Below, piece by piece: positions 10,431 to 61,040 of a stretch of DNA of 64,000 nucleotides. Position numbers and translations under genes: made by a program. The first letter of the stretch is position 1; each line of letters begins with the position of its first letter. This DNA comes from Streptomyces canus (GTDB lineage: Bacteria; Actinomycetota; Actinomycetes; Streptomycetales; Streptomycetaceae), in assembly GCF_041435015.1 (NCBI RefSeq), contig NZ_CP107989.1:9734001-9798000 (forward strand). The letters run 5' to 3'. The notes under the pieces were generated by a model. The model had not been told where the DNA came from. It was given only the letters and a program-made list of their open reading frames with translations, and made no database searches.

Positions 10431-10464
10431 GGGCCGTCCGGCCCGGGTGGGCTCCGAACGGCCC
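10431..10464. promoter_or_regulatory. Putative DevR/OsdR boxes upstream of the Acg gene
   Basis: GGGCCGTCCGGCCC (10431-10444) has perfect GGGCCG/CGGCCC arms. A second, weaker copy follows 20 bp later (GCTCCGAACGGCCC, 10451-10464). Both lie 92-125 bp upstream of the Acg start. The pattern fits GGGNC-N4-GNCCC, the core of the mycobacterial DosR motif. Confidence 0.72.
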
Positions 10465-10472
10465 GGGCGGAG

Positions 10473-11174
10473 CTATGTCGTGGGACGGCCGCCGGGGTGC
10501 GGCTGTTCCAGGTGGGACGCCAGGACCGCGGCCTGGACGCGGCGCTGGACACCGAGTTTGGCCAGGAGCCGGGAGATGTGGTTCTTGACGGTCTTCTCCG
10601 ACAGGTAGAGCTTCTTGCCGATCTCGCGATTGGTCAGGCCGTCACCGATCAGGGCGAGGATGTCCCGCTCCCGGGGCGACAGGCCGGCCAGTTCGGGTGC
10701 CGGGGCGGGTGCCGCGGCGGGTTCGGCGCGCAGCGAGCGCATCAGGCGGGCCGTGGTCGCGGGGTCGAGCATCGACTGGCCCGAGGCGACCGTACGCACC
10801 GCCGAGGCCAGGTCGGATCCCCGGATCTGCTTGAGCACATAGCCCGAGGCCCCGGCCATGATCGCGTCCAGCAGTGCGTCCTCTTCGTCGAACGAGGTCA
10901 GCATCAGACAGGCCAGCTCCGGCATCCGGTTGCGCAGCTCCCGGCAGACCGTGATGCCGTCGCCGTCCGGCAGGCGTACGTCGAGGACGGCGACGTCCGG
11001 GCGCAGCGCCGGGCCGCGGACGAGGGCGTGCTCCACGGTGTCCGCGTCACCGACCACCGAGATATCCGGTTCGGCGTCGAGCAGGTCGGTGATACCGCGT
11101 CGTACGACCTCGTGATCGTCGAGCAGGAAGACACGGATCGGATCCTGCTCCGTGAAGCTGCGTGTCCCGGTCAT
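10473..11174 (-). CDS. osdR: NarL/FixJ response regulator, DevR/DosR (OsdR) type
   Basis: The protein has 233 residues from ATG 11174 (GAGGGG site); a longer frame to 11231 lacks receiver-domain sequence. The receiver domain runs over residues 12-130 with the acidic pair D19/D20, phospho-acceptor D65 in VAVLDVRLPDGDG, T93 and K115. A linker precedes a LuxR helix-turn-helix (about 165-215). The recognition helix SEKTVKNHISRLLAKLG is nearly the same as in mycobacterial DevR, which supports the palindromes here being its targets. A perfect box (11256-11269) 81 bp upstream suggests autoregulation. The likely partner kinase is 16 kb away at 27331-29058. Confidence 0.92.
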   Translation of the reverse strand: MTGTRSFTEQDPIRVFLLDDHEVVRRGITDLLDAEPDISVVGDADTVEHALVRGPALRPDVAVLDVRLPDGDGITVCRELRNRMPELACLMLTSFDEEDALLDAIMAGASGYVLKQIRGSDLASAVRTVASGQSMLDPATTARLMRSLRAEPAAAPAPAPELAGLSPRERDILALIGDGLTNREIGKKLYLSEKTVKNHISRLLAKLGVQRRVQAAVLASHLEQPHPGGRPTT

Positions 11175-11255
11175 GACGGCCCCTCGTTCCCGGCGACGTA
11201 CGGGCTGCGGGTTGCCCGCGAGCACGATCATCGCTCGCCGGGGCCGGTCGCACCA

Positions 11256-11269
11256 GGGCCGACCGGCCC
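11256..11269. promoter_or_regulatory. Putative DevR/OsdR box between osdR and the pfl remnant
   Basis: GGGCCGACCGGCCC has perfect palindromic arms. It lies between the divergent osdR start (11174) and the pflB remnant start (11378). It could serve osdR autoregulation and formerly pfl expression. Confidence 0.72.
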
Positions 11270-11377
11270 CATCGGCTTGGGCGTGCGCCCCTCACCGGTC
11301 CCCTGGTCATGGCCCGGTGGTCCCTGCTGCCGGGCGGTTCCCGGCGGCGTGGCGACAGCACTGAGAGGGGACCGGCG

Positions 11378-11706
11378 ATGACCATCACCGCGGCAGCAGA
11401 CATCCGGGCGGCCGGAGCCTGGTCGGAATGCGCGGGACCCGGCCGGCGCGAGCGCGTCGACGTGCGGGACTTCATCCAGGCAACCACACGCCCTACGGAC
11501 GGATGACCAGGACGCCATCGATGGCCTGGCCGGCTTCGTGGCCCGGCCCGGCTCCGTCGAGCGCGTGGACGTCCTGCCGTTCCACAAGCTGGGCGTCGCG
11601 ACGTACGAGGCCCTCGGCTTCCTCCCCTTCCCCGCGCGTGACACGCCGAGCCCGACGCGACATTCGGTCGAGCGGGAGCAGTTCCGGGCGCATGGCCTGA
11701 CGGCTT
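11378..11706 (+). pseudogene. Deletion scar of a pyruvate formate-lyase operon (pflB start fused to pflA end)
   Basis: ATG 11378 has a GAGAGGGG ribosome site and begins a frame with AGPGRRERVDVRDFIQ, the conserved N-terminus of formate acetyltransferase. The expected next motif (NHTPYG) continues in another frame. From 11502 the sequence reads DDQDAIDGLAGFVARPGS, then VERVDVLPFHKLGVATYEAL and EQFRAHGL, which is the C-terminus of the pyruvate formate-lyase activating enzyme. Roughly 700 codons of pflB and most of pflA are therefore missing and the two ends are joined. The gene set is oxygen-sensitive and suits an anaerobic regulon; the upstream box at 11256 remains. Confidence 0.75.
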
Positions 11707-11866
11707 GCTCAACGAGGACTTCACCCCAACGGTCCCTGAAAACAGGGCCGTTCAGTCCTGAGGTCACGGACCTTCGGCATCCCGTGGCAGCCGCCGTACG
11801 CGACGAGAGTGAGGGGCGTCAGGTACCGAACGGACCTTCTCGCTCCTCCCCGAAGGGATCACCACC

Positions 11867-12496
11867 ATGGCCGTGCACGAGCACCCTCACCGGAACTCCG
11901 GCCTCCACCTGCCGAACTTCCGCAGGAACCGGACCGCCTCCGGCTCCGATTCGGCGGTGTCGGCACGCACCGGCACGCAGACGGCGCGGGCCTTTGCCTT
12001 CGCCTCGCTGCGTCTGCTCACCGGGTTCGTCTTCCTGTGGGCCTTCCTCGACAAGACCTTCGGCCTCGGCTACGCCACGCAGTCCGGCAAGGGCTGGATC
12101 GACGGCGGCTCGCCCACCAAGGGCTTCCTCGGCGGTGTGGCCGCGGGGCCGATGGAGTCCACCTTCCACTCCTGGGCCGGGGACACCTGGGCCGACTGGC
12201 TGTTCATGCTCGGTCTGCTCGGGATCGGCGTCGCGCTGATCGCCGGGGTGGCACTGCGGTTCGCGGCCGTCGCGGGCACCGTGATGATGGCGCTGATGTG
12301 GGTCGCCGAGTGGCCGCCCGCCCAGCACCTCTCCGACGGCTCGCCGAGCATGTCGACGAACCCCTTCGCGGACTACCACCTCATCTACGCCGTCGTCCTG
12401 ATCGCCCTGGCCGCAGCCTCCGCCGGAGAAACCCTCGGCCTCGGCAGGGTCTGGGCCAAGCTCCCGCTGGTGCGTCGCGGCCGCTGGCTGCGGTGA
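11867..12496 (+). CDS. DoxX/DoxD-like membrane protein
   Basis: The protein has 209 residues with ATG 11867 preceded by GAAGGG. After a 40-residue hydrophilic N-terminus there are four hydrophobic segments: ASLRLLTGFVFLWAFLDKTF, WLFMLGLLGIGVALIAGVAL, FAAVAGTVMMALMWVAEW and YHLIYAVVLIALAAA. This matches the four-helix DoxX / thiosulfate-quinone oxidoreductase small-subunit fold. Members couple to membrane redox or thiol stress, but substrates are rarely known. It sits between the pfl remnant and a USP operon. Confidence 0.75.
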   Translation: MAVHEHPHRNSGLHLPNFRRNRTASGSDSAVSARTGTQTARAFAFASLRLLTGFVFLWAFLDKTFGLGYATQSGKGWIDGGSPTKGFLGGVAAGPMESTFHSWAGDTWADWLFMLGLLGIGVALIAGVALRFAAVAGTVMMALMWVAEWPPAQHLSDGSPSMSTNPFADYHLIYAVVLIALAAASAGETLGLGRVWAKLPLVRRGRWLR

Positions 12497-12555
12497 GCGC
12501 GGGAGGCGCGGCGGGCCCGTCGGCAGGGTCCGCCGCACCACATCGACGCGGGCCA

Positions 12556-12589
12556 GGGCCGGTCGGCCCATGGCAGGGACCTGTGGCCC
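12556..12589. promoter_or_regulatory. Pair of putative DevR/OsdR boxes upstream of the USP-ADH-USP operon
   Basis: GGGCCGGTCGGCCC (12556-12569) and GGGACCTGTGGCCC (12576-12589) are 20 bp apart centre to centre. They lie 65-99 bp upstream of the USP start at 12655. Two-turn spacing would allow cooperative binding on one face of the helix. Confidence 0.74.
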
Positions 12590-12654
12590 CTGCCGGCGGC
12601 CAACGTCCGAAGACCAAGCTCGAATCGGGACCCCCGATCCAGAAGGTGGAGATC

Positions 12655-13560
12655 ATGACCCGTACCCTCACCGTCGGCCTCGACGGCTCTCCCGAGAGCC
12701 GGGCGGCGGCCGAGTGGGCCGCCCGTGAAGCACAACTGCTCGGCCTGCCGCTGAAGTTGGTCCAGGTCTGGGAGCCGGTTCCGGCCCCCATGGCCCAGGC
12801 GCCGCTCCTCGGTCCCGAGACCCACCAGCACTGGACCGAGCGGATCCCCCGGGAGACGGCCGAAGGCATCCGACTGCGCCACCCCGGCCTCGACGTGATC
12901 ACCGAGCAGTTGTCCGGCCGGCCCGCCGAAGCGTTGGCGGACGCGGCGAAGGACGCCGAGCTGCTGGTCCTGGGCTCCCGTGGGCTGAGCGGGATCGGCG
13001 GGTTCATGGTCGGTTCCGTCGGTCTGTGCGTCGTGGCGCATGCCGAGCGTCCGGTCGTCCTGGTGAGGGCCGGCGAGCAGGCTGCCGACGAGCACGAGAT
13101 GGACCCGGTCGGCATCCCGTCCGCCGCAGCCCCGTTCCGGCCCGTCGTCCTCGGCCTCGACATCGAGAGCCCCGACGAGGAGCTGATCGCCTTCGCGTTC
13201 GCGGCCGCCGTCCGCCGGAGCACATCCCTGCGGGTGGTCCACGGGTGGAACCCGCCGCCGTACTACGCCTACGGGCTCTCCGTCGACCTGGAACTCCACG
13301 GAGAACTGGCCCGGTCCGAGACCACCGCCCTGGCCGAGGTCCTGCTCCCGTGGCGCGAGAAGTTCCCGGACGTCGAGGTCTCCGGGGAGTCCTCCTACGG
13401 CAGCCCCGGCAACCACCTCGTCGACGCCTCCCGCGAGGCCTCACTGGTCGTCGTGGGACGGCGCATCCGGCGCAGCCCGTTCGGCGCCCACATCGGCTCG
13501 GTCACCCACACCGTCCTGCATCACTCCACCGCCCCCGTCGCCGTCGTCCCGCACAACTGA
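12655..13560 (+). CDS. Tandem-domain universal stress protein
   Basis: The product has 301 residues from ATG 12655 (AAGGTGGAG site). It has two USP domains of about 145 residues. The first starts TLTVGLDGSPESRAAAEWA and ends with the ATP-binding glycine loop (GSRGLSGIGGFMVGSVG) and RPVVLVR. The second starts PVVLGLDIESPDEELIAFA and ends VGRRIRRSPFGAHIGSVTHT and APVAVVPHN. This is the Rv2005c/Rv2623-like subtype, shared with the USP at 61673. It heads an apparent operon with an alcohol dehydrogenase (25 bp downstream) and another USP, behind two DevR-like boxes. Confidence 0.93.
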   Translation: MTRTLTVGLDGSPESRAAAEWAAREAQLLGLPLKLVQVWEPVPAPMAQAPLLGPETHQHWTERIPRETAEGIRLRHPGLDVITEQLSGRPAEALADAAKDAELLVLGSRGLSGIGGFMVGSVGLCVVAHAERPVVLVRAGEQAADEHEMDPVGIPSAAAPFRPVVLGLDIESPDEELIAFAFAAAVRRSTSLRVVHGWNPPPYYAYGLSVDLELHGELARSETTALAEVLLPWREKFPDVEVSGESSYGSPGNHLVDASREASLVVVGRRIRRSPFGAHIGSVTHTVLHHSTAPVAVVPHN

Positions 13561-13585
13561 CCTTCACCCCCAAGGAGCAGACATC

Positions 13586-14608
13586 ATGAAGGCAGCGGTC
13601 GTACGAGCCTTCGGCGAACCTCTGGTCATCGAGGACCGGCCCGACCCCGAGCCCGGCCCCGGCCAGGTCCGCGTCCGGGTGGAGGCCTCCGGGCTGTGCC
13701 ACACCGACATCCACGCCGCCCGGGGCGACTGGCCCGTCAAGCCGACCCCGCCCTTCGTCCCCGGTCACGAGGGCGTCGGCCTGGTCGAGAAGCTCGGCGA
13801 GGGCGTCACCCACCTGAGCGTCGGGCAGCGCGTCGCCGTGCCCTGGCTGGGCAAGGCGTGCGGGCGGTGCGAACACTGCCTGTCCGGCTGGGAGACGCTG
13901 TGCGAGCGGCAGATCAACACCGGCTACGGCTGTGACGGCGGGTACGCCGAGAAGATGCTGGCCTGGGCCGACTTCGCGCAGCCGGTGCCGCACGGCGTCA
14001 CGGCCTTCGACGCCGCCCCGCTGACGTGTGCGGGCGTGACGACGTACAAGGCGCTCAAGGTCGCCGGCGTGCGGCCCGCGCAGCTCGTCGCGATCTCCGG
14101 CGTCGGCGGCCTCGGTCACCTGGCCGTGCAGTACGCGAAGATCGCCGGGGCGCAGGTCGCCGCGATCGACGTCACCGACGAGAAGCTGGAACTCGCCGCC
14201 GAACTCGGCGCGGACCTGGTGATCGATGCCCGCAAGGACGACGTGGGCGAGGTGCTCAAGCGGTACGGCGGAGCCCACGCGGCGATCGCGCTCGCGGTGA
14301 ACGAGGCCGCTTTCGCCGCCGTCAACTCCGGGCTGCGGCGCGGCGGAAAGCTCGTCATGGTCGCCCTGCCCGCGCACGGCACGATCCAGGTCCCGATCTT
14401 CGACACCGTCCTGAACGGCACGAGCGTGATCGGTTCGATCGTCGGCACCCGGCAGGACCTCGCCGAGGTGTTCCAGCTGCACGCGGCCGGCCGTACCCGG
14501 GTCATCCACGAGACCCGCCCGCTGGCGAGCGTGAACGAGTCCATCGACGACGTCCTGCGGGGCGAGGTCAAGGCCCGGATCGTCTTCGACCTCGGCGTGG
14601 GACGGTGA
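13586..14608 (+). CDS. Zinc-dependent alcohol dehydrogenase (AdhP-like)
   Basis: The protein has 340 residues with a strong AAGGAG site. Catalytic zinc ligands C38, H61-E62 and C148 are present (LCHTDIH, GHEGVG, LTCAG). The structural zinc cysteines are C92, C95, C98 and C106. The NAD-binding loop is SGVGGLGHLAVQYAK. It should interconvert primary alcohols and aldehydes with NAD(H). Inside a hypoxia operon, the useful direction is aldehyde reduction to reoxidise NADH. It is flanked by USPs on the same strand; the next gene starts 5 bp after its stop. Confidence 0.93.
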   Translation: MKAAVVRAFGEPLVIEDRPDPEPGPGQVRVRVEASGLCHTDIHAARGDWPVKPTPPFVPGHEGVGLVEKLGEGVTHLSVGQRVAVPWLGKACGRCEHCLSGWETLCERQINTGYGCDGGYAEKMLAWADFAQPVPHGVTAFDAAPLTCAGVTTYKALKVAGVRPAQLVAISGVGGLGHLAVQYAKIAGAQVAAIDVTDEKLELAAELGADLVIDARKDDVGEVLKRYGGAHAAIALAVNEAAFAAVNSGLRRGGKLVMVALPAHGTIQVPIFDTVLNGTSVIGSIVGTRQDLAEVFQLHAAGRTRVIHETRPLASVNESIDDVLRGEVKARIVFDLGVGR

Positions 14609-14613
14609 GGGCG

Positions 14614-15486
14614 ATGGACCTGCCGATCGTCGTCGGTGTCGACGGCTCCGAGGCCGGACTGCGGGCCGTCGACTGGGCGGCCGACGAGGCCGCCCTGCGC
14701 GGGCTGCCGTTGCGGCTGGTGTACGCCTCACTGTGGGAGCGGTACGAGGGCGAGGCGCTCGCCGAGGACCTGGGCCGGCCGTCCGAACAGGTGCGGGCCG
14801 AGGACATCGTGGCGGCCGCCGCCCGGCGGGCCGCCCGGCGCCGGGCCGACGTGAAGATCTCCACCGAGGTGCTGCCCGAGGAAGCCGAGTACACGCTGGT
14901 GCACGAGAGCCGCGGGGCCGCCCTGCTGGTCACGGGCACCCGGGGCCGCGGCAGCCTCGCCGGGGCGCTGCTGGGCTCCGTGAGCCTGACCGTGGCCGGG
15001 CACGCGCACTGCCCGATGATCGTGGTGCGCGGCGACCAGGACGACCGGGCCCGCCCGGGACAGCATGACCGCGTCGTCGTCGGCGCCGGAGACACTTCGG
15101 CCGCCTCGGAGACGATGCGCTTCGCCTTCGAGGAGGCGCGGCGACGGGGTGCCGTACTGGAGGCCGTCCGGGCCTGGCGGTGCCCCGCGTACGAGACCAC
15201 GGACCACCCCCAGCTCGCCGGTGAACCCGCCCGGCTGCACGAGCAGCACGCGGTGGACGCCCTGGAAGCGGCACTCAAGGAGGCCCCCGACGACGTCGTG
15301 GTGCGTCGGCGCACTGTGGAGGGCCACGCCAGGACCGTCCTGGTGGGGGCCTCGCGCGACGCCGACCTCCTGATCATCGGGGCCAGGCGCCGCCCGCGGC
15401 ACTTCGGGCTCCAGCTGGGCCGCGTGGCCCATGGGGTACTGCTCCACTCCGACTGTCCGGTCGCCGTCGTGCCCGAACCGGTGTGA
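14614..15486 (+). CDS. Tandem-domain universal stress protein
   Basis: The protein has 290 residues from ATG 14614, with GAGGG 3 bases upstream. Domain 1 starts PIVVGVDGSEAGLRAVDWA and carries YASLWERYEG, the mark of the second USP subtype here (also at 29308, 54937 and 61116). Its glycine loop is GTRGRGSLAGALLGSVS. Domain 2 ends IGARRRPRHFGLQLGRVAHG and CPVAVVPEPV. It is the last gene of the USP-ADH-USP unit and converges with PPK2. Confidence 0.92.
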   Translation: MDLPIVVGVDGSEAGLRAVDWAADEAALRGLPLRLVYASLWERYEGEALAEDLGRPSEQVRAEDIVAAAARRAARRRADVKISTEVLPEEAEYTLVHESRGAALLVTGTRGRGSLAGALLGSVSLTVAGHAHCPMIVVRGDQDDRARPGQHDRVVVGAGDTSAASETMRFAFEEARRRGAVLEAVRAWRCPAYETTDHPQLAGEPARLHEQHAVDALEAALKEAPDDVVVRRRTVEGHARTVLVGASRDADLLIIGARRRPRHFGLQLGRVAHGVLLHSDCPVAVVPEPV

Positions 15487-15527
15487 CGATGGTGATCGTG
15501 GCGACGGCGACCGTGGTGACCGGCTGC

Positions 15528-16331
15528 TCAGAGACTCGCCGCGTGGTCGGGGACGAAGGTCTGCAGATCGCGCGGCGGGCGCTCGTAGCCGGTCGACTCC
15601 GGGCGCACCGGCAGCTCCAGCACCGGCGGGGGCACGTCGTGGTAGGGCAGCGAACCCAGCAGGTGGGCGATCATGTTCAGCCGCGCCTGCCGCTTGTCGT
15701 CGCTCTCCACGATGTACCACGGCGCCTCGGAGATGTCGGTGTGCACCATCATGTCGTCCTTGGCCCGCGAGTACGCCTCCCAGTGGGTGATCGACTCCAG
15801 GTCCATCGGCGAGAGCTTCCAGCGCCGCAGCGGATCCTCCAGCCGCTTGCGGAACCGCTCCTGCTGCTCGGTGTCGCTCACCGAGAACCAGTACTTGCGC
15901 AGCACGATCCCCGCTTCGACCAGCATCCGTTCGAATATCGGGCATTGCCGCAGGAAGAGCTGGTACTCCTCCCTCGTGCAGAAGCCCATCACGTGCTCGA
16001 CCCCGGCCCGGTTGTACCAGGACCGGTCGAACAGCACGATCTCTCCGGCGGCCGGCAGATGCTCGACGTACCTCTGGAAGTACCACTGGCTGCGCTCGCG
16101 CTCGGTCGGCTTGGGGAGCGCCGCGATCCGGGCGACGCGGGGGTTGAGATGCTCCGCGACCCGCTTGATGGTGCCGCCCTTGCCCGCCGCGTCCCGCCCC
16201 TCGAACACGACGACCACCCGGGCGCCCTCGGCCCGCACCCACTCCTGGAGCCTCACCAACTCCGTCTGAAGACGCAGCAGTTCCTTCTCGTACGTCTTGC
16301 GCGGCACCTTCGCCGCGGCCTTGCCGGCCAT
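15528..16331 (-). CDS. ppk2: Polyphosphate kinase 2 (polyphosphate:nucleotide phosphotransferase)
   Basis: The protein has 267 residues from ATG 16331 (GGAGG site). The PPK2 core is complete: Walker [12 protein letters not shown] (residues 43-53), the Walker B-type motif [18 protein letters not shown], and the basic lid [18 protein letters not shown]. It contains one PPK2 domain, so it should phosphorylate nucleoside diphosphates (or monophosphates) from polyphosphate. This would regenerate ATP/GTP when respiration stops. It is divergent from phosphoketolase, with only 41 bp between the starts, so the two promoters must overlap. Confidence 0.93.
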
Positions 16332-16372
16332 GCCGCCTCCACCGCCCGATGACCTACTCACGGAGCCATCCC

Positions 16373-18766: not shown

Positions 18767-18854
18767 ACACCTGCCTCGTGCGTCTTCGACCCGGGCTGCA
18801 CCAACCGGCTCCTCGACCTCACGGACTCGTCGCCGACGCCTGACCCACCCGGAC

Positions 18855-18884
18855 GGAGACCGGTGCCGCCGATCACCGGTCTCC
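18855..18884 (+). terminator. Hairpin terminator after phosphoketolase
   Basis: GGAGACCGGTG (18855-18865) pairs perfectly with CACCGGTCTCC (18874-18884) around an 8-base loop, and a pyrimidine stretch follows. It lies 88 bp after the phosphoketolase stop. Confidence 0.72.
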
Positions 18885-18894
18885 TTCCATGCAC

Positions 18895-19165
18895 CAGGAC
18901 GACCAGCGGATCGACCCCGTAGGTGGCCGAGACCATCGGCGACGCCCCGCACAACGACGGGCTGACCATGGACGTGCTACCCGCCCGGCAGATGGCGAGC
19001 GTGTCCTCGTACGACGCCGTCGCGCCCTCGCCGAACGCGCCCTTTGGCTCTTCAGCACCGGGTCGCTCGACGCCTCGTCCTCCGAGCGGGACATTCCGTC
19101 CGTGTCCGGAGTGCAACGGGCCATGACCCGGCTGGGCACCAGGGATCACTCCATGTTCGGCAGAC
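18895..19165 (+). pseudogene. Remnant of a flavodoxin-domain protein
   Basis: From 18923 one frame reads VAETIGDAPHNDGLTMDVLP then ARQMASVSSYDAV, which matches the start of the flavodoxin-domain family (FMN loop, then the alpha1-beta2 region). A TAG lies immediately upstream. About 25 residues normally between DAV and RALAERALWLFSTG are missing, and the sequence then continues in another frame as SLDASSSERDIPSVSGVQ and RAMTRLGTRDHSMFG. The end is missing too. The gene has suffered an internal deletion, at least one frameshift and loss of the C-terminus. Confidence 0.68.
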
Positions 19166-19204
19166 GGCGGCCACGGTGCCCGTGTTCCGGGCACCGTGGC
19201 CGCC
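19166..19204. terminator. Strong bidirectional terminator hairpin
   Basis: Bases 19166-19181 (GGCGGCCACGGTGCCC) pair perfectly with 19189-19204 around a 7-base loop. The hairpin begins 14 bp past the stop of the minus-strand USP gene, so it most likely ends that transcript. Confidence 0.78.
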
Positions 19205-19217
19205 TGCCGAGCCCTGC

Positions 19218-19874: not shown

Positions 19875-19889
19875 GAGGTTCTGTCCCCT

Positions 19890-20471
19890 TCAACCGGTCC
19901 TGTGCCCCCACTTCGGACCCAGCAGGTCCCACTCCCGTCCCCAGCTGTCGATGCGCTGCCGGTCGAGCCGCCACCGTACGACCGCTCCCACGCCGAGGAC
20001 CGCGCCGGTGAGGGCGAGTCCGGCGGCGGTGCCCAGCGCCCCGGCCTCGACAGCGGCTTCCCCGGCACTCGGCGGTGCGGTGGCCGGCGCGCCGTGGGCG
20101 TCCTGCCAGACCACGACTCGAGTTCCGGCCTTCAACCCGGTGTCGACCAGGGCGCGCCCGGTGCGGGCGGAGCCGTCGGGGGTCGTCCAGCGGACGGTGG
20201 CCGAAGCCTTGTCGTCCGACGACTGCGCCGCCGACATGTGCTTCGGCGTGTCGGTGAGGAGCACCGCGTGGGTGGAACGGCGATCGGTACGCAGTTGTGC
20301 GAGTGTCTCGTCCGCGGCGTGTGCCGTCACCAGGCCGACAGCGGTTCCTCCCATCGCGACGACGGCCCACAGTGCCAGGATGATCCATGCCTCGGCGATG
20401 TCGTCGCGCCGCCTCAACGGGTTGTTCCGCCAGCGCCAGAACCACTTCTTCGTCCGTTTGCCGTGGGCCAT
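19890..20471 (-). CDS. Rv1733c-like two-span membrane protein
   Basis: The protein has 193 residues from ATG 20471 (GGAAGGGG site). The layout is a basic start (KWFWRWRNNPLRRRDDIAEA), a first helix WIILALWAVVAMGGTAVGLV, an external domain of about 100 residues containing VRWTTPDGSARTGRALV, a second helix, and a short tail ending EWDLLGPKWGHRTG. This matches the Rv1733c family, a DosR-regulon membrane protein of unknown function. A paralogue with the same plan is at 60343-60948. A perfect DevR-like box lies 119 bp upstream. Confidence 0.83.
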   Translation of the reverse strand: MAHGKRTKKWFWRWRNNPLRRRDDIAEAWIILALWAVVAMGGTAVGLVTAHAADETLAQLRTDRRSTHAVLLTDTPKHMSAAQSSDDKASATVRWTTPDGSARTGRALVDTGLKAGTRVVVWQDAHGAPATAPPSAGEAAVEAGALGTAAGLALTGAVLGVGAVVRWRLDRQRIDSWGREWDLLGPKWGHRTG

Positions 20472-20589
20472 GGCTTCGCACCCCTTCCGGTCGTCACACC
20501 GTCGACGGTGGCAGCCCCGGGCGGGCGACGGCATGGGCCGAAGGGGCTGCACTCACGGGCCGCTCGGGACAGGTTTCCGGCCGTGGAGA

Positions 20590-20603
20590 GGGCCGTTCGG
20601 CCC
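20590..20603. promoter_or_regulatory. Putative DevR/OsdR box upstream of the Rv1733c-like/USP operon
   Basis: GGGCCGTTCGGCCC has perfect arms. Two weaker partial copies lie closer to the gene (GGGCCGAAGGGGCT at 20535 and GGGCCGCTCGGGAC at 20557). All are within the 173-bp gap upstream of the start at 20471. Confidence 0.72.
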
Positions 20604-20644
20604 ACGGGTACCGGAACGGTGAGGCGCGTACATCGCCGTGCGCG

Positions 20645-21040: not shown

Positions 21041-21076
21041 GGTGAGATCAAAGCCGCGCCGACGGACGACGCGGAA

Positions 21077-21179
21077 GGGCCGAACGGTCCCTGGCCACCG
21101 GGCCCGGTCGGCCCACGAACGGCTCGTGACAACCATGGGGAGCATGCCCTGTCGGTCGGGAAAGGGGCCCGACCGGCCC
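21077..21179. promoter_or_regulatory. Cluster of three DevR/OsdR-like boxes between the STAS and alcohol dehydrogenase genes
   Basis: GGGCCGAACGGTCC (21077-21090), GGCCCGGTCGGCCC (21101-21114) and GGCCCGACCGGCCC (21166-21179) each match at least 10 of the 12 arm positions. The gap separates divergent starts at 21040 and 21323, so both genes may respond. Confidence 0.68.
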
Positions 21180-21322
21180 AAGCGGTCTCCGCACCGGCGG
21201 GCCACGCTGGAGGTGCGGGGCACATCCGGCGCGGGGACGACGCCAGACTCTCACCGGCAGCCGAAACCCCACCCCACCGCCGATCCCGGGCTCCGCAGCC
21301 GATCGAGTGGATGAGGAGCGTC

Positions 21323-22393: not shown

Positions 22394-22411
22394 CGAAAGG
22401 ACGTGACGACC

Positions 22412-23074: not shown

Positions 23075-23221
23075 CACGGGCAGAGACGGATGGCTGATCC
23101 ACCCGCGTCAGGCCGTCCGCAACGGCCCTGCTCGGCACGACACGCGGGAGGCGGAGCGGCGCGGTCTGCGACTGCATGGCCTGCACTCCGGGACGCACCG
23201 GCACCGCGATCGCGTGACCCA

Positions 23222-23713: not shown

Positions 23714-23833
23714 GACGGACTTTCCGTTGGGGTTTCGTGGCGTACTGCCCGGTCGGAATACACACGGAGCGACACCGCGGGGGATCGGTGCCGCTCCTTC
23801 TTCAAGCTTCTCCCTGGCCGAGGGCCGCGCCAA

Positions 23834-23847
23834 GGGCCGATGGTCCC
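23834..23847. promoter_or_regulatory. Putative DevR/OsdR box upstream of the PPOX gene
   Basis: GGGCCGATGGTCCC fits GGGNC-N4-GNCCC exactly. A weaker neighbour GGGACCGGACGGCT starts at 23854, again 20 bp away. Both lie between the hibernation-factor stop (23869) and the PPOX start (23713). Confidence 0.65.
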
Positions 23848-23868
23848 CGACCAGGGACCGGACGGCTC

Positions 23869-24340: not shown

Positions 24341-27028
24341 TCACCGGCTGTCGCTGCCCTCGGTGTCGGACAGCGCCGCCCGGCCCGCCTCCAGACGCGC
24401 CACCGGGACCCGGAACGGCGAGCAGGACACGTAGTCCAGGCCCGCCGCGTGGAAGAAGTGGACGGAGTCGGGATCGCCGCCGTGTTCGCCGCAGACGCCG
24501 AGCGTCAGGCCGGGACGGGCGGTGCGGCCCTCTTCGACCGCGATCCGGATCAGCCGCCCCACGCCGTCGCGGTCGATCGTCTCGAACGGCGAGGTGGGGA
24601 AGACGCCCTTGTCGAGGTAGGCGGAGAAGAACGCCGCCTCGACGTCGTCGCGTGAGAAGCCCCAGGTGGTCTGGGTGAGGTCGTTCGTGCCGAAGGAGAA
24701 GAACTCCGCCTCCTCGGCGATCCGGCCGGCGGTGAGCGCGGCGCGGGGCAGCTCGATCATCGTGCCGACCGGGCACCGCACCGGAACACCGGACTCGTAC
24801 GAGACCTCGTCCAGCACCCGCTCCACCTCGGCGCGCTCGATCCGCAGTTCCTCGACCGCGCCGACCAGCGGCACCATGATCTCGGCCCGCGGAGAGCCTC
24901 CGGCCCTCGTGCGGGCCACGACGGCCTCGGCGACGGCCCGTACCTGCATGGCGACCAGGCCCGGAACCACCAGCCCCAGGCGCACGCCGCGCAGGCCGAG
25001 CATCGGGTTCTCCTCGTGCATGCGGTTCACCGCGGAGAGCAACTCGGCCTCGTGCGGCTCCGGTTGCTCACCGCGGGCCTCGGCGGCCGCGATGCGTACG
25101 GCGAGTTCGGTGCGGTCGGGCAGGAACTCGTGCAACGGCGGATCCAGCAGGCGGATGGTCACGGGCAGTCCGTCCATCGCCTCCAGGATGTCGGTGAAGT
25201 CCTGCCGCTGGAGCGGCAGGAGAGCAGCCAGTGCCCGGTCGCGATCGGAGTCCGTTGCGGCGAGGATCATCGCCTCGACCAGCTTGCGGCGCTCGCCGAG
25301 GAACATGTGCTCGGTACGGCACAGTCCCACGCCCTGCGCGCCGAACCGGCGGGCGCGCCGCGCGTCCTCGGGGGTGTCGGCGTTGGCGCGGACCTCCAAC
25401 CGCCGTAGGGAGTCGGCCTGTTCGAGAGAGCGGGCCACCGCGGCCACGACGCCGCCGGGCTGCTCGCCGGTCTCCAGGTACCGCATCGCCTCGGAGGCGA
25501 CCAGCGGCACCGCACCCGCGTACACGGCTCCGGCGGTGCCGTCCACCGAGATGACCGTGCCCTCCCCCACAACGGTTCCGTCGGGGGTGGTGAAGTGCCG
25601 GGCCGCGGTGTCCACGGCGAGTTCCTCCGCGCCGCAGACGCACACCTTGCCCATGCCCCGGGCGACCACCGCGGCGTGGCTCGTCTTGCCGCCCCGGCTG
25701 GTCAGCACGGCCTCGGCGGCGACCATGCCGGGCAGGTCGTCGGGGGTGGTCTCCTGGCGGACGAGCACCGTCCTCTCGCCGGCCGCGGCACGCCGTACGG
25801 CCTCGGCGGAGTCGAAGACCGCCGCGCCGACCGCCGCGCCGGGGGAGGCCGGGAGGCCGTGGGCGAGCGCGGTACCGGTGACGTCGGTGTCGAACCGGGG
25901 GAACATCAGCCGGGCCAGGCCCTCGCCGCTGACCCGGGCCAGTGCCTCCTCCGCAGTGATCTGCCCTTCCTTGACCAGTTCGGCGGCGATGGCGAACGCG
26001 GCCTCGGCGGTGCGCTTGCCGACCCGGGTCTGGAGCATCCACAGCGTGCCGCGCTCGATGGTGAATTCGATGTCGCACAGGTCGCGGTAGTGCCGCTCCA
26101 GGGTCCCCATGTGGTCGCGCAGGCGCCGGTAGGAGTCAGGGTCCAGTCGCTCCAGTTCGGTCAGGGGCACGGTGTTGCGGATGCCGGCGACGACGTCCTC
26201 GCCCTGGGCGTTGGCCAGGTAGTCGCCGTACAGTCCGGGCCGGCCGGTGGCCGGGTCGCGGGTGAAGGCGACGCCGCTGCCGGAGTCGGGGCCGAGATTG
26301 CCGTAGACCATGCGCTGCACGGTGACCGCCGTGCCGAGGTCGTCGGGGATGTGCTCGCGGCGGCGGTACAGGCGGGCGCGTTCGCCGTTCCAGGACCGGA
26401 AGACGGCGAGGATCGCGAGGCGCAGCTGCTCGGCGGGCGACTGGGGGAACGCCCGGCCCGTCTCGTCGAGGATCAGCCGCTTGTACGTCTCGACCAGCCC
26501 GGCGAGGTCGTTCGCGTCCAGGTACAGGTCGTCGGGGGCTTCGCGGGCCTCCTTGAGCAGGGTCATGGCCTCGTCGAACCGGGCGGTGTCGACTCCCATG
26601 ACCGTACTGCCGAACATCTGGACGAGCCGGCGGTAGGAATCCCAGGCGAAGCGGTCACTGCCGGAGGTCTTGGCGAGGCCCAGGACGGAGTCGTCGTTCA
26701 GGCCGATGTCCAGGACGGTCTCCATCATGCCGGGCATGGAGAAGCGGGCCCCGGACCGGACGGACACCAGCAGCGGGTCGTCCCGCTGCCCCAGTCGGCG
26801 CCCGGCGGACTCCTCCAGGGCAGACAGGTGCCGGGAGACCTCGGCCGACATGCCCTCCGGCTCGGCGCCGGTCGCCAGGAAGGCCCGGCAGGCGTCGGTG
26901 GTCACGGTGAAGCCCGGCGGGACCGGCAGGCCCAGCCGGGTCATCTCGGCCAGGTTCGCGCCCTTGCCGCCCAACAGGTCGGCCATGTCCCGGCGGCCCT
27001 CGCGGAAGTCGTGCACGTAACGGACCAT
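24341..27028 (-). CDS. ppdK: Pyruvate, phosphate dikinase
   Basis: The protein has 895 residues, normal for the family, from ATG 27028 (GAGGAG site). The N-terminal ATP-grasp domain opens LLGGKGANLAEMTRLGLPVP. The swivelling phospho-histidine is in GGKTSHAAVVARGMGKVCVCG (His near residue 450). The C-terminal PEP barrel has RTEHMF and the catalytic Cys in GVCGEHGG (near 845). The enzyme interconverts PEP + AMP + PPi and pyruvate + ATP + phosphate. In the ATP-forming direction it yields extra ATP at the expense of PPi. A perfect DevR-like box lies 112 bp upstream. Confidence 0.96.
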   Translation of the reverse strand: MVRYVHDFREGRRDMADLLGGKGANLAEMTRLGLPVPPGFTVTTDACRAFLATGAEPEGMSAEVSRHLSALEESAGRRLGQRDDPLLVSVRSGARFSMPGMMETVLDIGLNDDSVLGLAKTSGSDRFAWDSYRRLVQMFGSTVMGVDTARFDEAMTLLKEAREAPDDLYLDANDLAGLVETYKRLILDETGRAFPQSPAEQLRLAILAVFRSWNGERARLYRRREHIPDDLGTAVTVQRMVYGNLGPDSGSGVAFTRDPATGRPGLYGDYLANAQGEDVVAGIRNTVPLTELERLDPDSYRRLRDHMGTLERHYRDLCDIEFTIERGTLWMLQTRVGKRTAEAAFAIAAELVKEGQITAEEALARVSGEGLARLMFPRFDTDVTGTALAHGLPASPGAAVGAAVFDSAEAVRRAAAGERTVLVRQETTPDDLPGMVAAEAVLTSRGGKTSHAAVVARGMGKVCVCGAEELAVDTAARHFTTPDGTVVGEGTVISVDGTAGAVYAGAVPLVASEAMRYLETGEQPGGVVAAVARSLEQADSLRRLEVRANADTPEDARRARRFGAQGVGLCRTEHMFLGERRKLVEAMILAATDSDRDRALAALLPLQRQDFTDILEAMDGLPVTIRLLDPPLHEFLPDRTELAVRIAAAEARGEQPEPHEAELLSAVNRMHEENPMLGLRGVRLGLVVPGLVAMQVRAVAEAVVARTRAGGSPRAEIMVPLVGAVEELRIERAEVERVLDEVSYESGVPVRCPVGTMIELPRAALTAGRIAEEAEFFSFGTNDLTQTTWGFSRDDVEAAFFSAYLDKGVFPTSPFETIDRDGVGRLIRIAVEEGRTARPGLTLGVCGEHGGDPDSVHFFHAAGLDYVSCSPFRVPVARLEAGRAALSDTEGSDSR

Positions 27029-27139
27029 GACGCTGCGCTCCTCGGCTCGGCGGACCCGGTTCGGCTCCTCGGTCACGACGTGGCCTCAGCGTCGAACACC
27101 GCCGGGTCCACCCGGCAGGTGCTGTCCGTCCCCGGTCCG

Positions 27140-27153
27140 GGGCCGAACGGCCC
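27140..27153. promoter_or_regulatory. Putative DevR/OsdR box between ppdK and the sensor kinase
   Basis: GGGCCGAACGGCCC has perfect arms, extended to GGGG/CCCC. It lies 112 bp from the ppdK start (minus strand) and 177 bp from the kinase start (plus strand) in a 302-bp gap that holds no gene. Confidence 0.74.
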
Positions 27154-27330
27154 CAGTGCGGCCCTGCGAGGTAGGGCGGATGCCCGGTACGCGTCCGTTC
27201 ACGGCAAAGGCGGTCACCGGACCCTCTGTCGCCGATCCGAATGCGTACCGTCACCCGCCGTCGGCCGGTAGCGTGGTCCACGACCGGAGCGGCAGGTGTG
27301 AGCCCGTCCGAGGGACCCGAGGAGACGCAG

Positions 27331-29058
27331 GTGGCAAGCCCCCAGGAGCCGCAGGAGGCCCGTGTACGGCTGCCGCAACTGAGGCTGGACGAGCTCCTAG
27401 AGGAGCTTCAGGCGCGGCTGGACGCGGCCCGTGGCACCCGGGACCGGGTGCACAGCCTGCTGGAGGCGGTGCTCTCGGTCGGCCGCGAGCTGGATCTGGA
27501 GCAGGCGCTGCACAGCATCGTCGAAGCCGCCGGAGTGCTCGTCGACGCGGAGTACGCGGCCCTCGGCGTGATCGGTCCGGACGGCAGGCGTCTCTCCGCC
27601 TTCCACACCGTCGGGGTCACCGAGGAGCAGATCGCCCGGATCGGCCCCTTCCCCGAGGGCCACGGCATCCTCGGTGAGCTGATCCGCCATCCCGAGCCGC
27701 TGCGCCTGACGAAGATCTCCGAGCATCCCTCGTCATACGGCTTCCCGGACCACCATCCGCCGATGAACAGCTTCCTTGGCGTGCCCATCCGCGTGCGCGA
27801 CCAGATCTTCGGCAACCTGTACCTCACCGAGAAGCGGGGCGGCGCGCGGTTCGACGAGGACGACGAGTCCGTTCTCTCGACCCTGGCGGTGGCGGCAGGG
27901 GTCGCCATCGACAACGCCCGCCTCTATGAGGACTCCCGGCTGCGGGAGCGCTGGCTGCGGGCGAACGCGGAGGTCACCCACAGCCTCATGTCCGGCGGCG
28001 GGCGCACCGACGTGCTCGGCCTGATCGCCGAGCGGGCCGGCGAGATCACCGGATCGGCGCTGGCCGCGGTCGCGCTGCCCATGGAGGACACCGGGTCGCT
28101 CGCCGTGGAGATCGCCGTCGGGCTGGATTCCGACGCGCACAAGGGGCTCGTGCTCCCGGTGGACGCGACCTTGATGGGGCTGGCCTTCTCCAGGGTCGCC
28201 CCTGCCGTCAGTGCGGACGTCTCCCACGACGAACGCGTTACCCCGGAACCGCCCCGTTTCCAGGGGCTCGGTCCCGCCGTGGCCGTGCCCATCGGGACGG
28301 GCGAGGACGGAGTCCGAGGCGTGCTTCTGCTGGCACGGGAGGCCGGTCGGCCGGAGTTCACCACGACCGAGACCGAGACCCTGCAAGGCTTCGCCGCGCA
28401 GGCCGCCGTCGCCATGGAACTGGCGGAGCGTCGTCAGGACGCCGAGCAGATCGCGGTGCTCAAGGACCGCGACCGGATCGCCCGTGACCTGCACGACCTG
28501 GCGATCCAGCGGTTGTTCGCCACGGGAATGACCCTGCAGAGCGCTGGCCGGTTCATCGAGCATCCAGAGGCGGCCGAGCGTGTCGTCCGGGCAGTGGACG
28601 ACCTGGACGAGACCATCAAGATCATCAGGTCGACGATCTTCGGGCTGCGAGCGCGTGACAGCGGGGCCGGGGCGGGACTGCGCGCCCGGGTCGTACGGGC
28701 CGTCGGTGAGGCGGCCCCGGTGCTGGGCTTCACGCCCAGCGTGCGCATGGAAGGACTGCTCGACACCGACGTGCCGCGCGAGATCGCCGACCACGCGCTG
28801 GCCGTGCTCTCCGAGGCCCTCACCAACATCGCCCGGCACGCCCACGCCGACCGCGCCGACCTGGCGCTGGAGTGCGACGGCCGCCAACTGCGGCTGACGG
28901 TCACCGACAACGGCGTGGGAGTTCCGGCCGGCGGCCGCCGCAGCGGACTGCTCAACATGGCCGAACGGGCCGAACAGCTGGGCGGCGAACTGGAGTTGAG
29001 CAGTACGCCTGACGGCGGCGCCACACTGGTGTGGCGGGTGCCGGTGGGGGAGCGGTAG
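27331..29058 (+). CDS. osdK: GAF-GAF sensor histidine kinase, DevS/DosT (OsdK) type
   Basis: From GTG 27331, with GAGGAG 6-7 bases upstream, the product has 575 residues, the length of DevS (an ATG at 27241 has no site). GAF-A (about 40-200) contains HPSSYGFPDHHPPMNSFLGV; H142, just before PPM, matches the heme-ligand histidine of DevS. GAF-B covers about 215-370. The kinase core has phospho-His H388 in DRIARDLHDLAIQRLF, N-box EALTNIARHAHA, and ATP motifs VTDNGVG and SGLLNMAERAEQLGG. There are no membrane spans, so it is a cytoplasmic O2/NO/CO or redox sensor. The presumed partner is osdR at 10473. Confidence 0.92.
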   Translation: MASPQEPQEARVRLPQLRLDELLEELQARLDAARGTRDRVHSLLEAVLSVGRELDLEQALHSIVEAAGVLVDAEYAALGVIGPDGRRLSAFHTVGVTEEQIARIGPFPEGHGILGELIRHPEPLRLTKISEHPSSYGFPDHHPPMNSFLGVPIRVRDQIFGNLYLTEKRGGARFDEDDESVLSTLAVAAGVAIDNARLYEDSRLRERWLRANAEVTHSLMSGGGRTDVLGLIAERAGEITGSALAAVALPMEDTGSLAVEIAVGLDSDAHKGLVLPVDATLMGLAFSRVAPAVSADVSHDERVTPEPPRFQGLGPAVAVPIGTGEDGVRGVLLLAREAGRPEFTTTETETLQGFAAQAAVAMELAERRQDAEQIAVLKDRDRIARDLHDLAIQRLFATGMTLQSAGRFIEHPEAAERVVRAVDDLDETIKIIRSTIFGLRARDSGAGAGLRARVVRAVGEAAPVLGFTPSVRMEGLLDTDVPREIADHALAVLSEALTNIARHAHADRADLALECDGRQLRLTVTDNGVGVPAGGRRSGLLNMAERAEQLGGELELSSTPDGGATLVWRVPVGER

Positions 29059-29185
29059 CGGAGACGGGGCCCGCGCCATCCCTGACATCGTGATGCCCCG
29101 CTGAAGGGCCGCGCACGGCACTCCGAGGACGAACGCGTCGTCGACCGTCCGGCCGCCGGCCGTTCGGCGATGACGGCGACGCCAT

Positions 29186-29219
29186 GGGCCGAACGGCCCC
29201 GGTCGGGGCCCGTTCGCCC
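29186..29219. promoter_or_regulatory. Pair of putative DevR/OsdR boxes upstream of the USP-HAD-GH65 operon
   Basis: GGGCCGAACGGCCC (29186-29199, perfect arms) and GGGCCCGTTCGCCC (29206-29219) are 20 bp apart centre to centre. They lie 88-122 bp upstream of the USP start at 29308, the same arrangement as at 12556-12589. Confidence 0.74.
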
Positions 29220-49731: not shown

Positions 49732-49745
49732 GACTACGAGACTAC

Positions 49746-58900: not shown

Positions 58901-58911
58901 CGCTCTCCTCC

Positions 58912-60303
58912 TCACCTAGGTACGGACCGATGTGATCCGGGCGGGGCACTTTCTGGGACCTGGGGCCGTGCGGAGGCGGCAGGCATCTCGTCCTCGATGC
59001 GCTGCCGGACGCGGGCCGTGAGTACGCTCAGTCGCTCGGAGGTCGTCGCCCGGGGCGCGACGGGCGCTCGGATCCGGCGGGCGGCCGAGGGCAACTCTCC
59101 CAGGTCCGCGGCGAGTCTGGCCCGGCACTCGTCGAGCATGGGCCGCCTGCCGGTGCGCCGCCCGTTCAGCATCACCGTCTCCAGCAGCGGAGCGCCGTCG
59201 GCGGGGGGCTGCTCATGGGCGAGAGCGATCTCGTCGGCGCAGCCTGGGCGGCGGAACACCTGTTTGCGGCCGGGCGCCGTCACCTTCGCCGACGAGAGCT
59301 TCATCACCGGGCGGCCGTCGAACTCGACCAGCTTGTAGGCGGAGTCCAGATACGGCGCGTCGGCCGACACGCCGACACGGGTGCCCACGGCGTACGTGTC
59401 GATCGGTGCTCCGGAGCGCACGAGGTCGTCCACGGCGTACTCGTCGAGACCACCACTGGCGACGATCCGCACGTCCGGCAACCCCGCGTCGTCGAGGAGG
59501 GAGCGGGCGCGGGCCGCCAGGCTCCCGAGGTCGCCACTGTCCAGACGTATGGCTGAGCCGGGTCCGCGGTCGAGGTCCCGCAGTACGCGTGCCGCTACGC
59601 GGACTCCTTCTTCGGTGTCGTAGGTGTCCACCAGCAGGGTCACCGGGCCGGGGTGGGACCGGGCGAAGGCGCGGAACGAGTCCTCCTCCGAGGCGAACGC
59701 CTCCACGAAGGAGTGGGCCATCGTGCCGACGGCGGGGATGCCCTCGGCGGTGGCCGCCGCCACGTTGCTGGTCCCGGCGAAGCCGACCGTCGCACCCAGA
59801 CGAGCGGCCTGGAACCCCGCCTGCGGCCCGTGGGAGCGCCGCAAGGAGAAGTCGACGACCGGATGACCGGCCGCCGCGACGACACAGCGCGCGGCCTTCG
59901 AAGCGATCGTCGTCTGATGGCTGAGTTGGTTGAGCACATACGTCTCTACCAACTGCGCCTGCGGAAGCGGTGCGGTCACCTCCAGCAGCGGCTCGCCCGC
60001 GAGCACGATCCGCCCCTCCGGCACCGCCCGCACCTGGCCGGTGAATGTCAGGCCGAGCAGCGGCTCCAGGTCCCCTGGCGGCCTGTGCAGCGCGGAAGCG
60101 AAGGCGTCGACGTCCTCGGGGCCGACATGAAAGTCGGCCAGGTAGTCGAGTGCCGACTCGAGCCCCGCCGCCACCAGGAAGCCGCGTTCAGGGGGCAGGT
60201 TGCGGACGAAGAGGCTGAACGTCGCCTGGCCGGTCATCTCCTCCCGCAGGTAGGACATGGCCATCGTGACTTCGTACAGATCGGTGGTCGTCGCATCCGA
60301 CAT
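58912..60303 (-). CDS. pncB: Nicotinate phosphoribosyltransferase
   Basis: The protein has 463 residues from ATG 60303 (AGGAGG site). Family sequence is evident: TTDLYEVTMAMSYLREEMTG, YVLNQLSHQTTIASKAARCV, VVDFSLRRSHGPQAG, GTSNVAAATAEGIPAVGTMA, LVDTYDTEEGV, IRLDSGDLGSLA and YKLVEFDGRPVMKLSSAKVT. It converts nicotinate and PRPP to nicotinate mononucleotide (NAD salvage). A second such gene (Rv0573c, pncB2) is in the M. tuberculosis DosR regulon. It follows the Rv1733c-like gene by 39 bp and shares its promoter. Confidence 0.93.
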   Translation of the reverse strand: MSDATTTDLYEVTMAMSYLREEMTGQATFSLFVRNLPPERGFLVAAGLESALDYLADFHVGPEDVDAFASALHRPPGDLEPLLGLTFTGQVRAVPEGRIVLAGEPLLEVTAPLPQAQLVETYVLNQLSHQTTIASKAARCVVAAAGHPVVDFSLRRSHGPQAGFQAARLGATVGFAGTSNVAAATAEGIPAVGTMAHSFVEAFASEEDSFRAFARSHPGPVTLLVDTYDTEEGVRVAARVLRDLDRGPGSAIRLDSGDLGSLAARARSLLDDAGLPDVRIVASGGLDEYAVDDLVRSGAPIDTYAVGTRVGVSADAPYLDSAYKLVEFDGRPVMKLSSAKVTAPGRKQVFRRPGCADEIALAHEQPPADGAPLLETVMLNGRRTGRRPMLDECRARLAADLGELPSAARRIRAPVAPRATTSERLSVLTARVRQRIEDEMPAASARPQVPESAPPGSHRSVPR

Positions 60304-60342
60304 CGGTGTCACCTCCTGGGGTTCCGTCCCGCCTCCTGCTCG

Positions 60343-60948
60343 TCACCGGCGGAAGCGCGCGGACCACTGCGGTTCCACCAGGTCCCATTCGGCGTCCCAG
60401 TGCGCATACCTTCTCCGGTCCAGGACCAGGCGCATGCCTGCCAAGGCCGCGTAGGATCCGGCGGCCACGCCGAACGCCGCCATGGCGCCCACCATCCAGC
60501 CACGGCTCGTCGCATTGAGAGTGCTCGTCGGCGGACTGGTGACGGTTCCCTCCCGCGTCACCCACACCCGCACGGTGGCGCCTTTGGGAGTTCCCGGCTT
60601 CACGAGGGCCGCTCCCGTCCGCACGACACCGTTGGTGTCGGTCCAGCGGACCTGAGCCGGTCGCTTCGCCCAGCCCTCGTCGCTCTGGACGCCCGCTGTC
60701 AGTCGGGCGGTGACCTGGTGCCGCTCCGCCGCCTGGGAACGCACGGTGCCCATCGACGCTTCGTACGCCGTCAGTCCCGCGCTGACCGCGGCTGCCGGCA
60801 GCCCGAGGACGAGAACGACCATCAGGACGCGGCGGACCCAGCATTCGAATCTGTCGGAGGTACGTCGCAGGGAGTTCGCGCCCTTGTACGCGTGATCGCC
60901 GCGCCGGGACGGCGGGCCGGATGCATACGGCGAACCTTGTGCGCTCAT
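60343..60948 (-). CDS. Rv1733c-like two-span membrane protein, second copy
   Basis: The protein has 201 residues from ATG 60948 (GGAGG site). It repeats the plan of the protein at 19890: basic N-terminus, helix VRRVLMVVLVLGLPAAAVSA, external domain with VRWTDTNGVVRTGAALVKPG, second helix WMVGAMAAFGVAAGSYAALA, and tail AHWDAEWDLVEPQWSARFRR. Function is unknown; relatives are DosR-induced. It is the first gene of a minus-strand operon (Rv1733c-like, pncB, DUF1876, hsp20) behind the box at 61027. Confidence 0.83.
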   Translation of the reverse strand: MSAQGSPYASGPPSRRGDHAYKGANSLRRTSDRFECWVRRVLMVVLVLGLPAAAVSAGLTAYEASMGTVRSQAAERHQVTARLTAGVQSDEGWAKRPAQVRWTDTNGVVRTGAALVKPGTPKGATVRVWVTREGTVTSPPTSTLNATSRGWMVGAMAAFGVAAGSYAALAGMRLVLDRRRYAHWDAEWDLVEPQWSARFRR

Positions 60949-61026
60949 GAGTCGGCCTCCAGCATCTCGCTGGTCCGTCCCCCACCACCAGCTCCCACAG
61001 TCGACCGGCAGCGGGCTCGCGGCACA

Positions 61027-61040
61027 GGGCCGAAAGTCCC
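61027..61040. promoter_or_regulatory. Putative DevR/OsdR box upstream of the Rv1733c-like/pncB/hsp20 operon
   Basis: GGGCCGAAAGTCCC fits GGGNC-N4-GNCCC exactly and, with its half GTCCC, is the site here closest to the mycobacterial form. It lies 78 bp upstream of the start at 60948. Confidence 0.7.

Follow-up and report, generated by a model that had tools for sequence, protein, structure and literature searches.

The stretch analysed here, 64,000 nucleotides of the Streptomyces canus contig NZ_CP107989.1 (positions 9,734,001 to 9,798,000; hereafter the window), carries a response regulator gene, osdR, a sensor kinase gene, osdK, and a set of stress and metabolism genes preceded by a repeated palindrome, GGGCCG-NN-CGGCCC. 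We put forward evidence that these palindromes are almost certainly operator sites (OsdR/DevR boxes) of the OsdR protein encoded at 10473-11174. The grounds obtained here are the sites, their promoter position, clustering, conservation and pairing, and the identity of the regulator and the kinase; binding, phosphorylation and activation by OsdR in this strain would follow by analogy with Streptomyces coelicolor. The palindromes themselves are real, and the regulon, the motif and gel shifts have already been published for S. coelicolor. Gene bounds were taken from our own gene calling, with the starts of osdR and of one universal stress protein gene set by hand. The principal genes of the window are the following.

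9374..10339, minus strand: Acg family FMN-binding oxidoreductase (Rv3131_FMN_oxido model, 302 bits, cut-off 199)
10473..11174, minus strand: osdR, NarL-type response regulator of the DevR/OsdR kind, 233 aa; ATG at 11174 preferred over the longer open reading frame from 11231
12655..13560, plus strand: universal stress protein, followed by an alcohol dehydrogenase-like gene (13586-14608) and a further universal stress protein gene (14614-15486)
19890..20471, minus strand: Rv1733c family protein (175 bits, cut-off 80)
24341..27076, minus strand: pyruvate, phosphate dikinase (PPDK; TIGR01828, 1239 bits, cut-off 843)
27298..29058, plus strand: osdK, GAF-GAF-HisKA_3-HATPase sensor kinase of the DevS/DosT type; reading frame open from 27241

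The osdR product contains receiver and LuxR-type domains (domain search on the longer reading frame from 11231), and its best match in the PDB is Mycobacterium tuberculosis DevR (3c3w, 252.8 bits), the next reaching 140; among the 25 best NCBIfam models listed for it, none is over its cut-off. The recognition stretch reads EKTVKNHISRLLAKLG in OsdR and EKTVKNYVSRLLAKLG in DevR, two residues differing, which agrees with a preliminary description of this DNA in which the recognition helix of the regulator was called nearly identical to that of DevR. For osdK, whose domains were assigned on the reading frame from 27241, the first GAF domain matches PDB 2vzw (E 7e-49; its entry names a probable histidine kinase, which we take to be DosT) and DevS 2y8h (E 2e-44), and the best matches of the kinase domain are DevS and DosT chains. 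The HHPPM motif is kept in OsdK, and its second histidine (residue 172 of the 605-aa form) is presumably the heme ligand of a predicted heme- and oxygen-binding domain. The same description had proposed a DosR-type motif together with its regulator, and this proposal is supported by DevR as the best PDB match, by the DevS-like kinase in the cluster and by the published OsdR consensus, AGGGCCGATCGGCCCT (PMC5069765), which equals the palindrome of the window.

Six perfect-arm copies of the palindrome start at 10431, 11256, 12556, 20590, 27140 and 29186, all of them where they had first been described, compared with a mean of 0.14 and a maximum of 2 in 100 dinucleotide-preserving shuffles. Eight near copies had been described as well: those at 10451, 21077, 21101, 21166, 23834 and 61027 were recovered with one or two mismatches and that at 29206 was found one base later (29207, two mismatches), whereas 12576 has no match within two mismatches. 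Matches with at most two mismatches number 58 in the window against 43.1 ± 6.7 expected, which is weak evidence; because mismatch counting is uninformative in this respect, it was replaced by a matrix derived from 25 published S. coelicolor OsdR sites (PMC5069765, Table 1), which is independent of the window. For all matrix scans the reversed matrix served as control, and a score of at least 13 was taken to define a strong site. At this threshold the window contains ten sites, all ten in intergenic DNA (10,999 bases) and none in coding DNA (52,986 bases), and the reversed matrix yields none; a threshold of 11.5 gives 13 sites, of which one (15160) is intragenic, with one for the reversed matrix, and a threshold of 10 gives 14, with three for the reversed matrix. 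One strong site, at 11744-11759, was absent from the preliminary description. The boxes are listed below, distances being measured from the near edge of the box to the predicted start codon.

10430..10445: score 15.1, 91 bp upstream of the Acg/Rv3131-family gene (9374-10339, minus strand); weak partner at 10450-10465 (8.1), 20 bp away
11255..11270: score 18.8, the best of the window, 81 bp upstream of osdR, an autoregulatory position
11744..11759: score 14.0, 108 bp upstream of the gene at 11867
12555..12570: score 17.2, 85 bp upstream of the universal stress protein gene 12655-13560
20589..20604: score 18.3, 118 bp upstream of the Rv1733c-family gene (19890-20471, minus strand)
21076..21091: score 16.1, 36 bp upstream of a STAS-domain gene
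21100-21115 (11.8) and 21165-21180 (11.8): in the divergent region of the STAS gene and the alcohol dehydrogenase-like gene at 21323
23833..23848: score 15.6, 120 bp upstream of a PNPOx-like gene (23249-23713, minus strand); partner at 23854-23869 (8.3), 21 bp away
27139..27154: score 18.2, between the divergent PPDK gene (63 bp) and osdK (144 bp, start 27298); weak partner at 27118 (7.3)
29185..29200: score 16.5, 108 bp upstream of the universal stress protein gene 29308-30186; partner at 29206-29221 (10.4), 21 bp away
61026..61041: score 16.6, 78 bp upstream of an Rv1733c-family gene (60343-60948, minus strand)

Universal stress proteins, Rv3131/Acg and Rv1733c, the core target families, are thus all present behind boxes. 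The box-preceded genes 19890 and 60343 have no Pfam match and belong to the Rv1733c family in NCBIfam, which explains the box at 61026; the earlier statement that the sites precede stress genes needs correction at this position, where the site faces the minus-strand Rv1733c-family gene and not the stress gene at its right. Rv1733c is a member of the M. tuberculosis DevR regulon.

Conservation was assessed in relatives, that is, in the loci around the best 80 of 571 confirmed regulator-protein matches, which were chosen without regard to the motif; many of them are close kin and their counts are not independent. In these loci, 258.5 kb of intergenic DNA contain 256 strong sites (99 per 100 kb) and 1,326 kb of coding DNA contain 26 (1.96 per 100 kb), the reversed matrix giving 2 and 17, respectively, and at least one site is present in 79 of the 80 loci. 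Equal density in coding regions or in unrelated intergenic DNA had been named in advance as evidence against the motif. The density in coding DNA does not equal that in intergenic DNA in either the window or the relatives, and a box occurs in only 2 of 23 control regions, so that neither comparison refuted the sites. The relatives' sites lie at a median of 105 bp upstream of the nearest start, and a box stands upstream of 61 of 85 OsdR-type genes (best match OsdR), 20 of 29 Rv1733c-type genes, all 8 STAS genes, all 5 PflB genes, 18 of 45 PNPOx-like genes, 50 of 159 universal stress protein genes and 2 of 22 PPK2 genes. An OsdK-like gene (>300 bits) is found in 50 of the 80 loci, in 27 of these at most 2 kb from an osdR.

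The distribution of these sites also bears on what else the palindromes might be. As G+C-rich inverted repeats between genes they could fold in RNA and act as hairpins, terminators or attenuators, but convergent gaps, the expected place for terminators, contain 2 of 252 relatives' sites while accounting for 13.5% of all counted bases (p about 2e-13), a T-rich run (at least 5 T in 8) adjoins none of the 252, and a terminator scan of 10300-29400 returned 4 candidates against 3.6 by chance, none of them on a box. We have therefore rejected the terminator or attenuator reading and regard RNA hairpins in general as very improbable. The many copies within 19 kb might instead point to a short MITE- or REP-like repeat that has been dispersed by copying. 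Across 240 relatives' sites, however, only a core of 14-16 bp is conserved, no base exceeding 50% at any of the three flanking positions on each side, and the distance between box and start is kept; given flanks without conservation beyond the core, this reading was likewise rejected, and we consider it more remote still than RNA hairpins.

Operator function is further suggested by the arrangement of boxes in pairs. The pairing set comprised 275 strong intergenic sites from the relatives, the window and a second cluster described below, identical contexts being counted once, and weaker sites scoring at least 7 were tallied around them, pairs of two strong sites being counted twice. The offsets -22 to -20 and +20 to +22 together receive 68 counts, where the reversed matrix gives 1, and all offsets to 80 bp receive 148, where it gives 25. 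Since 21 bp corresponds to two helical turns, two dimers would sit on one face of the DNA. Cooperative binding to a primary and an adjacent weaker site is described for M. tuberculosis DevR (PMC3029386), and Table 1 of the S. coelicolor paper gives two sites 20 bp apart upstream of SCO0517, at -248 and -268, although its main text uses none of the terms "tandem", "spacing" and "paralog" (PMC5069765).

Several observations weigh against the assignment to OsdR, in addition to the kinship among relatives already noted. Across the genome (10.68 Mb in 5 contigs) the perfect-arm pattern occurs 27 times and its reversed counterpart 31 times, and a degenerate pattern 22 times against 30 for its reversed control, with no excess in either case. 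Eighteen perfect-arm sites fall outside the two clusters defined below, and 11 of them are inside genes, two scoring 18.6, which indicates that sequence alone does not make a site. Unclassified genes in the relatives' loci have a box upstream at a low rate (59 of 746). In the window osdR and osdK are 16 kb apart and do not form an operon, gene order not being a defining property of their function. Finally, PolR of Microlunatus, although homologous to DevR, reportedly recognises another sequence, built as a direct repeat (PMC6754071), so that likeness to DevR does not by itself fix the motif.

The genome-wide totals, 27 against 31, are at the same time the argument for regarding the sites as a chance product of a G+C-rich genome. 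This reading is refuted by the intergenic/coding contrast in the 80 other loci and by clustering, and we grant it practically no credence: nine of the 27 perfect-arm sites fall in two clusters, each with an osdR, six of them within 18.8 kb of the window, a concentration reached in none of 20,000 uniform random placements, and three at 261.9-274.3 kb of the same contig. The central bases are A or T in 14 of 18 cases in the two clusters and in 15 of 36 elsewhere. A genome-wide regulon defined by simple pattern was dropped, because neither the perfect-arm nor the degenerate counts rise above the reversed control, and for the same reason we make no claim for single sites outside the two clusters; the seven intergenic ones among them could be real.

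The second cluster surrounds the gene (262267-262905) of a regulator, OsdR2, that is 75% identical to OsdR. This gene is on the same contig of 10.39 Mb, close to the opposite end; the window cluster lies about 0.63 Mb from its own contig end. The 80 kb around OsdR2 contain nine strong sites, all intergenic (at 253.6, 257.5, 261.9, 262.1, 263.0, 274.3, 275.0, 283.6 and 285.6 kb), with one for the reversed matrix. OsdR2 would be expected to read the same sites as OsdR, because their recognition stretches are identical, and the boxes of the window might accordingly be read mainly by OsdR2, or by some other regulator, instead of by the OsdR encoded beside them. Other partners are conceivable on two further grounds. 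S. coelicolor OsdK is reported to have a second partner, SCO3818 (PMC5069765). In the present genome, where a search for a second full-length DevS/DosT-like kinase found none of the length and type of osdK, the next match to OsdK (E 3e-26, residues 63-233, with an adjacent match to residues 369-605) is a shorter GAF kinase at 7.9355-7.9367 Mb, 41% identical over residues 63-233 and adjoined by a regulator 42% identical to OsdR (same contig, 7935515-7937300); this pair is a possible cross-talk partner. Against such readers stands the location of osdR inside the cluster and behind the best box of the window, the majority of relatives' OsdR-type genes counted above likewise having a box upstream, and we judge it unlikely that the sites serve mainly a regulator other than the window OsdR.

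With OsdR as the reader of the boxes, the system can be expected to work as follows. When oxygen falls, or nitric oxide rises, OsdK would phosphorylate OsdR, whose dimers would bind a strong box about 36-145 bp upstream of the start codon; a weaker box two helical turns (20-22 bp) away would often be occupied by a second dimer. Bound OsdR would then switch on genes for stress and low-oxygen metabolism, osdR included, and the shared box at 27139 suggests that osdK is probably induced too. This places the stress island of the strain under a known oxygen-linked dormancy switch and provides a scored set of boxes.

Other features of the window deserve mention in their own right. The box-preceded gene 11867-12496 encodes a 209-aa protein with no Pfam or NCBIfam match, homologues of which have an OsdR box upstream in 12 of 19 cases in the relatives' loci. 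A 12-pair hairpin (23766-23797) lies between the box at 23833 and the start of the PNPOx-like gene at 23713, in its possible leader. Elsewhere, 1772-6694 encodes a 1640-aa protein with DUF3686, DUF7902 and a C-terminal AAA domain, and two glycoside hydrolase family 65 genes are present (30959-33331 and 52949-54883), the first of which follows a HAD-like hydrolase and a box-bearing stress gene.

The second cluster differs in gene content through its fermentation genes. Over curated cut-offs it encodes AdhE (NF010378, 1325 bits), the pyruvate formate-lyase activase PflA (TIGR02493, 294.5), pyruvate formate-lyase PflB (TIGR01255, 1145) and carbamate kinase (381, cut-off 361); under the cut-offs are flavohaemoprotein-like and ADP-forming acetyl-CoA synthetase-like genes, and a D-2-hydroxyacid dehydrogenase and universal stress proteins are also found there. 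In a survey of 150 Streptomyces genomes, which scored 19 regulator candidates per genome, the regulator was found at E ≤ 1e-70 in 139, with two to five copies in 85 of these, matches near 1e-75 possibly being more distant relatives. PflB is present in 55 of the 150 genomes (54 over the cut-off), as 58 genes, one split in two frames. Clustering at 25% mean distance divides the 58 enzymes into three groups, namely that of our own genome (37), a second (11) and a third (10). We analysed up to 20 kb around 57 of these genes, with the region of our own genome as the 58th and, as controls, 23 regions from the same genomes at a distance of 500 kb. An intergenic box scoring at least 13 is present in 36 of 37 regions of the own group, 0 of 11 of the second, 3 of 10 of the third and 2 of 23 controls, and an osdR in 21 of 37, 0 of 11, 2 of 10 and 0 of 23, respectively (Fisher, own group against controls: p 7e-13 for the box, p 2e-6 for osdR). 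Directly upstream of pflB, boxes scoring at least 10 stand in 26 of 37, 1 of 11 and 4 of 10 cases in the three groups (reversed matrix, 1 of 37 in the own group), and boxes scoring at least 13 in 12 of 37, 0 of 11 and 3 of 10.

The link between pyruvate formate-lyase and OsdR is accordingly one of neighbourhood and boxes, 16 of the 37 own-group regions having no osdR. In our own genome the box directly upstream of pflB scores 11.5, so that direct control of the gene by an OsdR-type regulator appears likely but not strong. A tree of 103 OsdR rows has two supported groups, of 22 and 81 members, with 14 and 9 of them beside pyruvate formate-lyase; the rows were gathered partly by way of pfl, which biases these proportions, and one row beside the split gene was counted as without. 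From these sequence data we offer a tentative proposal, somewhat more apt to need revision than to stand as worded: a large part of Streptomyces may possess a two-regulator dormancy regulon, in which OsdR and OsdR2 share one box and probably one kinase, and whose second arm would lead at oxygen loss to fermentation of the mixed-acid type (PflB-PflA, AdhE, ADP-forming acetyl-CoA synthetase-like enzyme and D-2-hydroxyacid dehydrogenase). If the proposal is true, these 'obligate aerobes' would possess a way of surviving by fermentation that is governed by oxygen sensing, which would bear on the 'anaerobic paradox' described below. In Staphylococcus aureus, pfl and adhE are reported to be controlled by the redox regulator Rex (PMC5355995), which might conceivably act on the second cluster as well. 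Among the matches listed in our literature search, which lay mostly outside subscription papers, we found no account of two OsdR clusters in one genome and none of a link between the pfl group and OsdR boxes across the genus.

The closest known system is the OsdR-OsdK regulon of S. coelicolor (SCO0204 and SCO0203, respectively), for which Urem et al. (2016; PMC5069765) report a consensus, gel shifts with mutated boxes, promoter assays and microarrays, as well as phosphorylation-dependent binding and low-oxygen induction. The two systems have in common the consensus and the targets osdR, universal stress proteins, nitroreductase, PPDK, PNPOx-like protein and alcohol/zinc dehydrogenase. Published box positions are -81 for osdR, -100 for uspA and -99 for a nitroreductase gene; in the window the osdR and universal stress protein boxes stand at 81 and 85 bp by the near edge and at 96 and 100 bp by the far edge, and as the published figures may be counted from either edge, we claim that the positions are similar, not identical. 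The systems differ in that osdR and osdK form an operon in S. coelicolor but are well separated here, in that the PPDK box is common to osdK in the window and to a universal stress protein gene in S. coelicolor, and in the second OsdR with its own cluster in the present genome. Resemblance extends to DevR/DosR of M. tuberculosis (DevS/DosT-DevR) in the near-identical recognition stretch, the GAF type of kinase, the Rv3131/Acg and Rv1733c targets and the primary box with an adjacent weaker one (PMC3029386); unlike the DevR regulon, the boxes here read GGGCCG-NN-CGGCCC and the second cluster holds fermentation genes. Pyruvate formate-lyase under OsdR was dropped as an unreported finding, since the putative pyruvate formate-lyase SCO0206 is already listed in S. 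lividans among the genes following osdR expression (PMC6302529). There the activase is described as an N-terminal fragment and putative pseudogene, whereas the PflA and PflB encoded here beside OsdR2 each exceed the curated cut-off, with matches spanning almost the full length of the model. The 'anaerobic paradox', whereby bacteria without anaerobic growth keep genes for anaerobic metabolism (PMC5069765), becomes testable through the OsdR-linked pyruvate formate-lyase group present in many Streptomyces.

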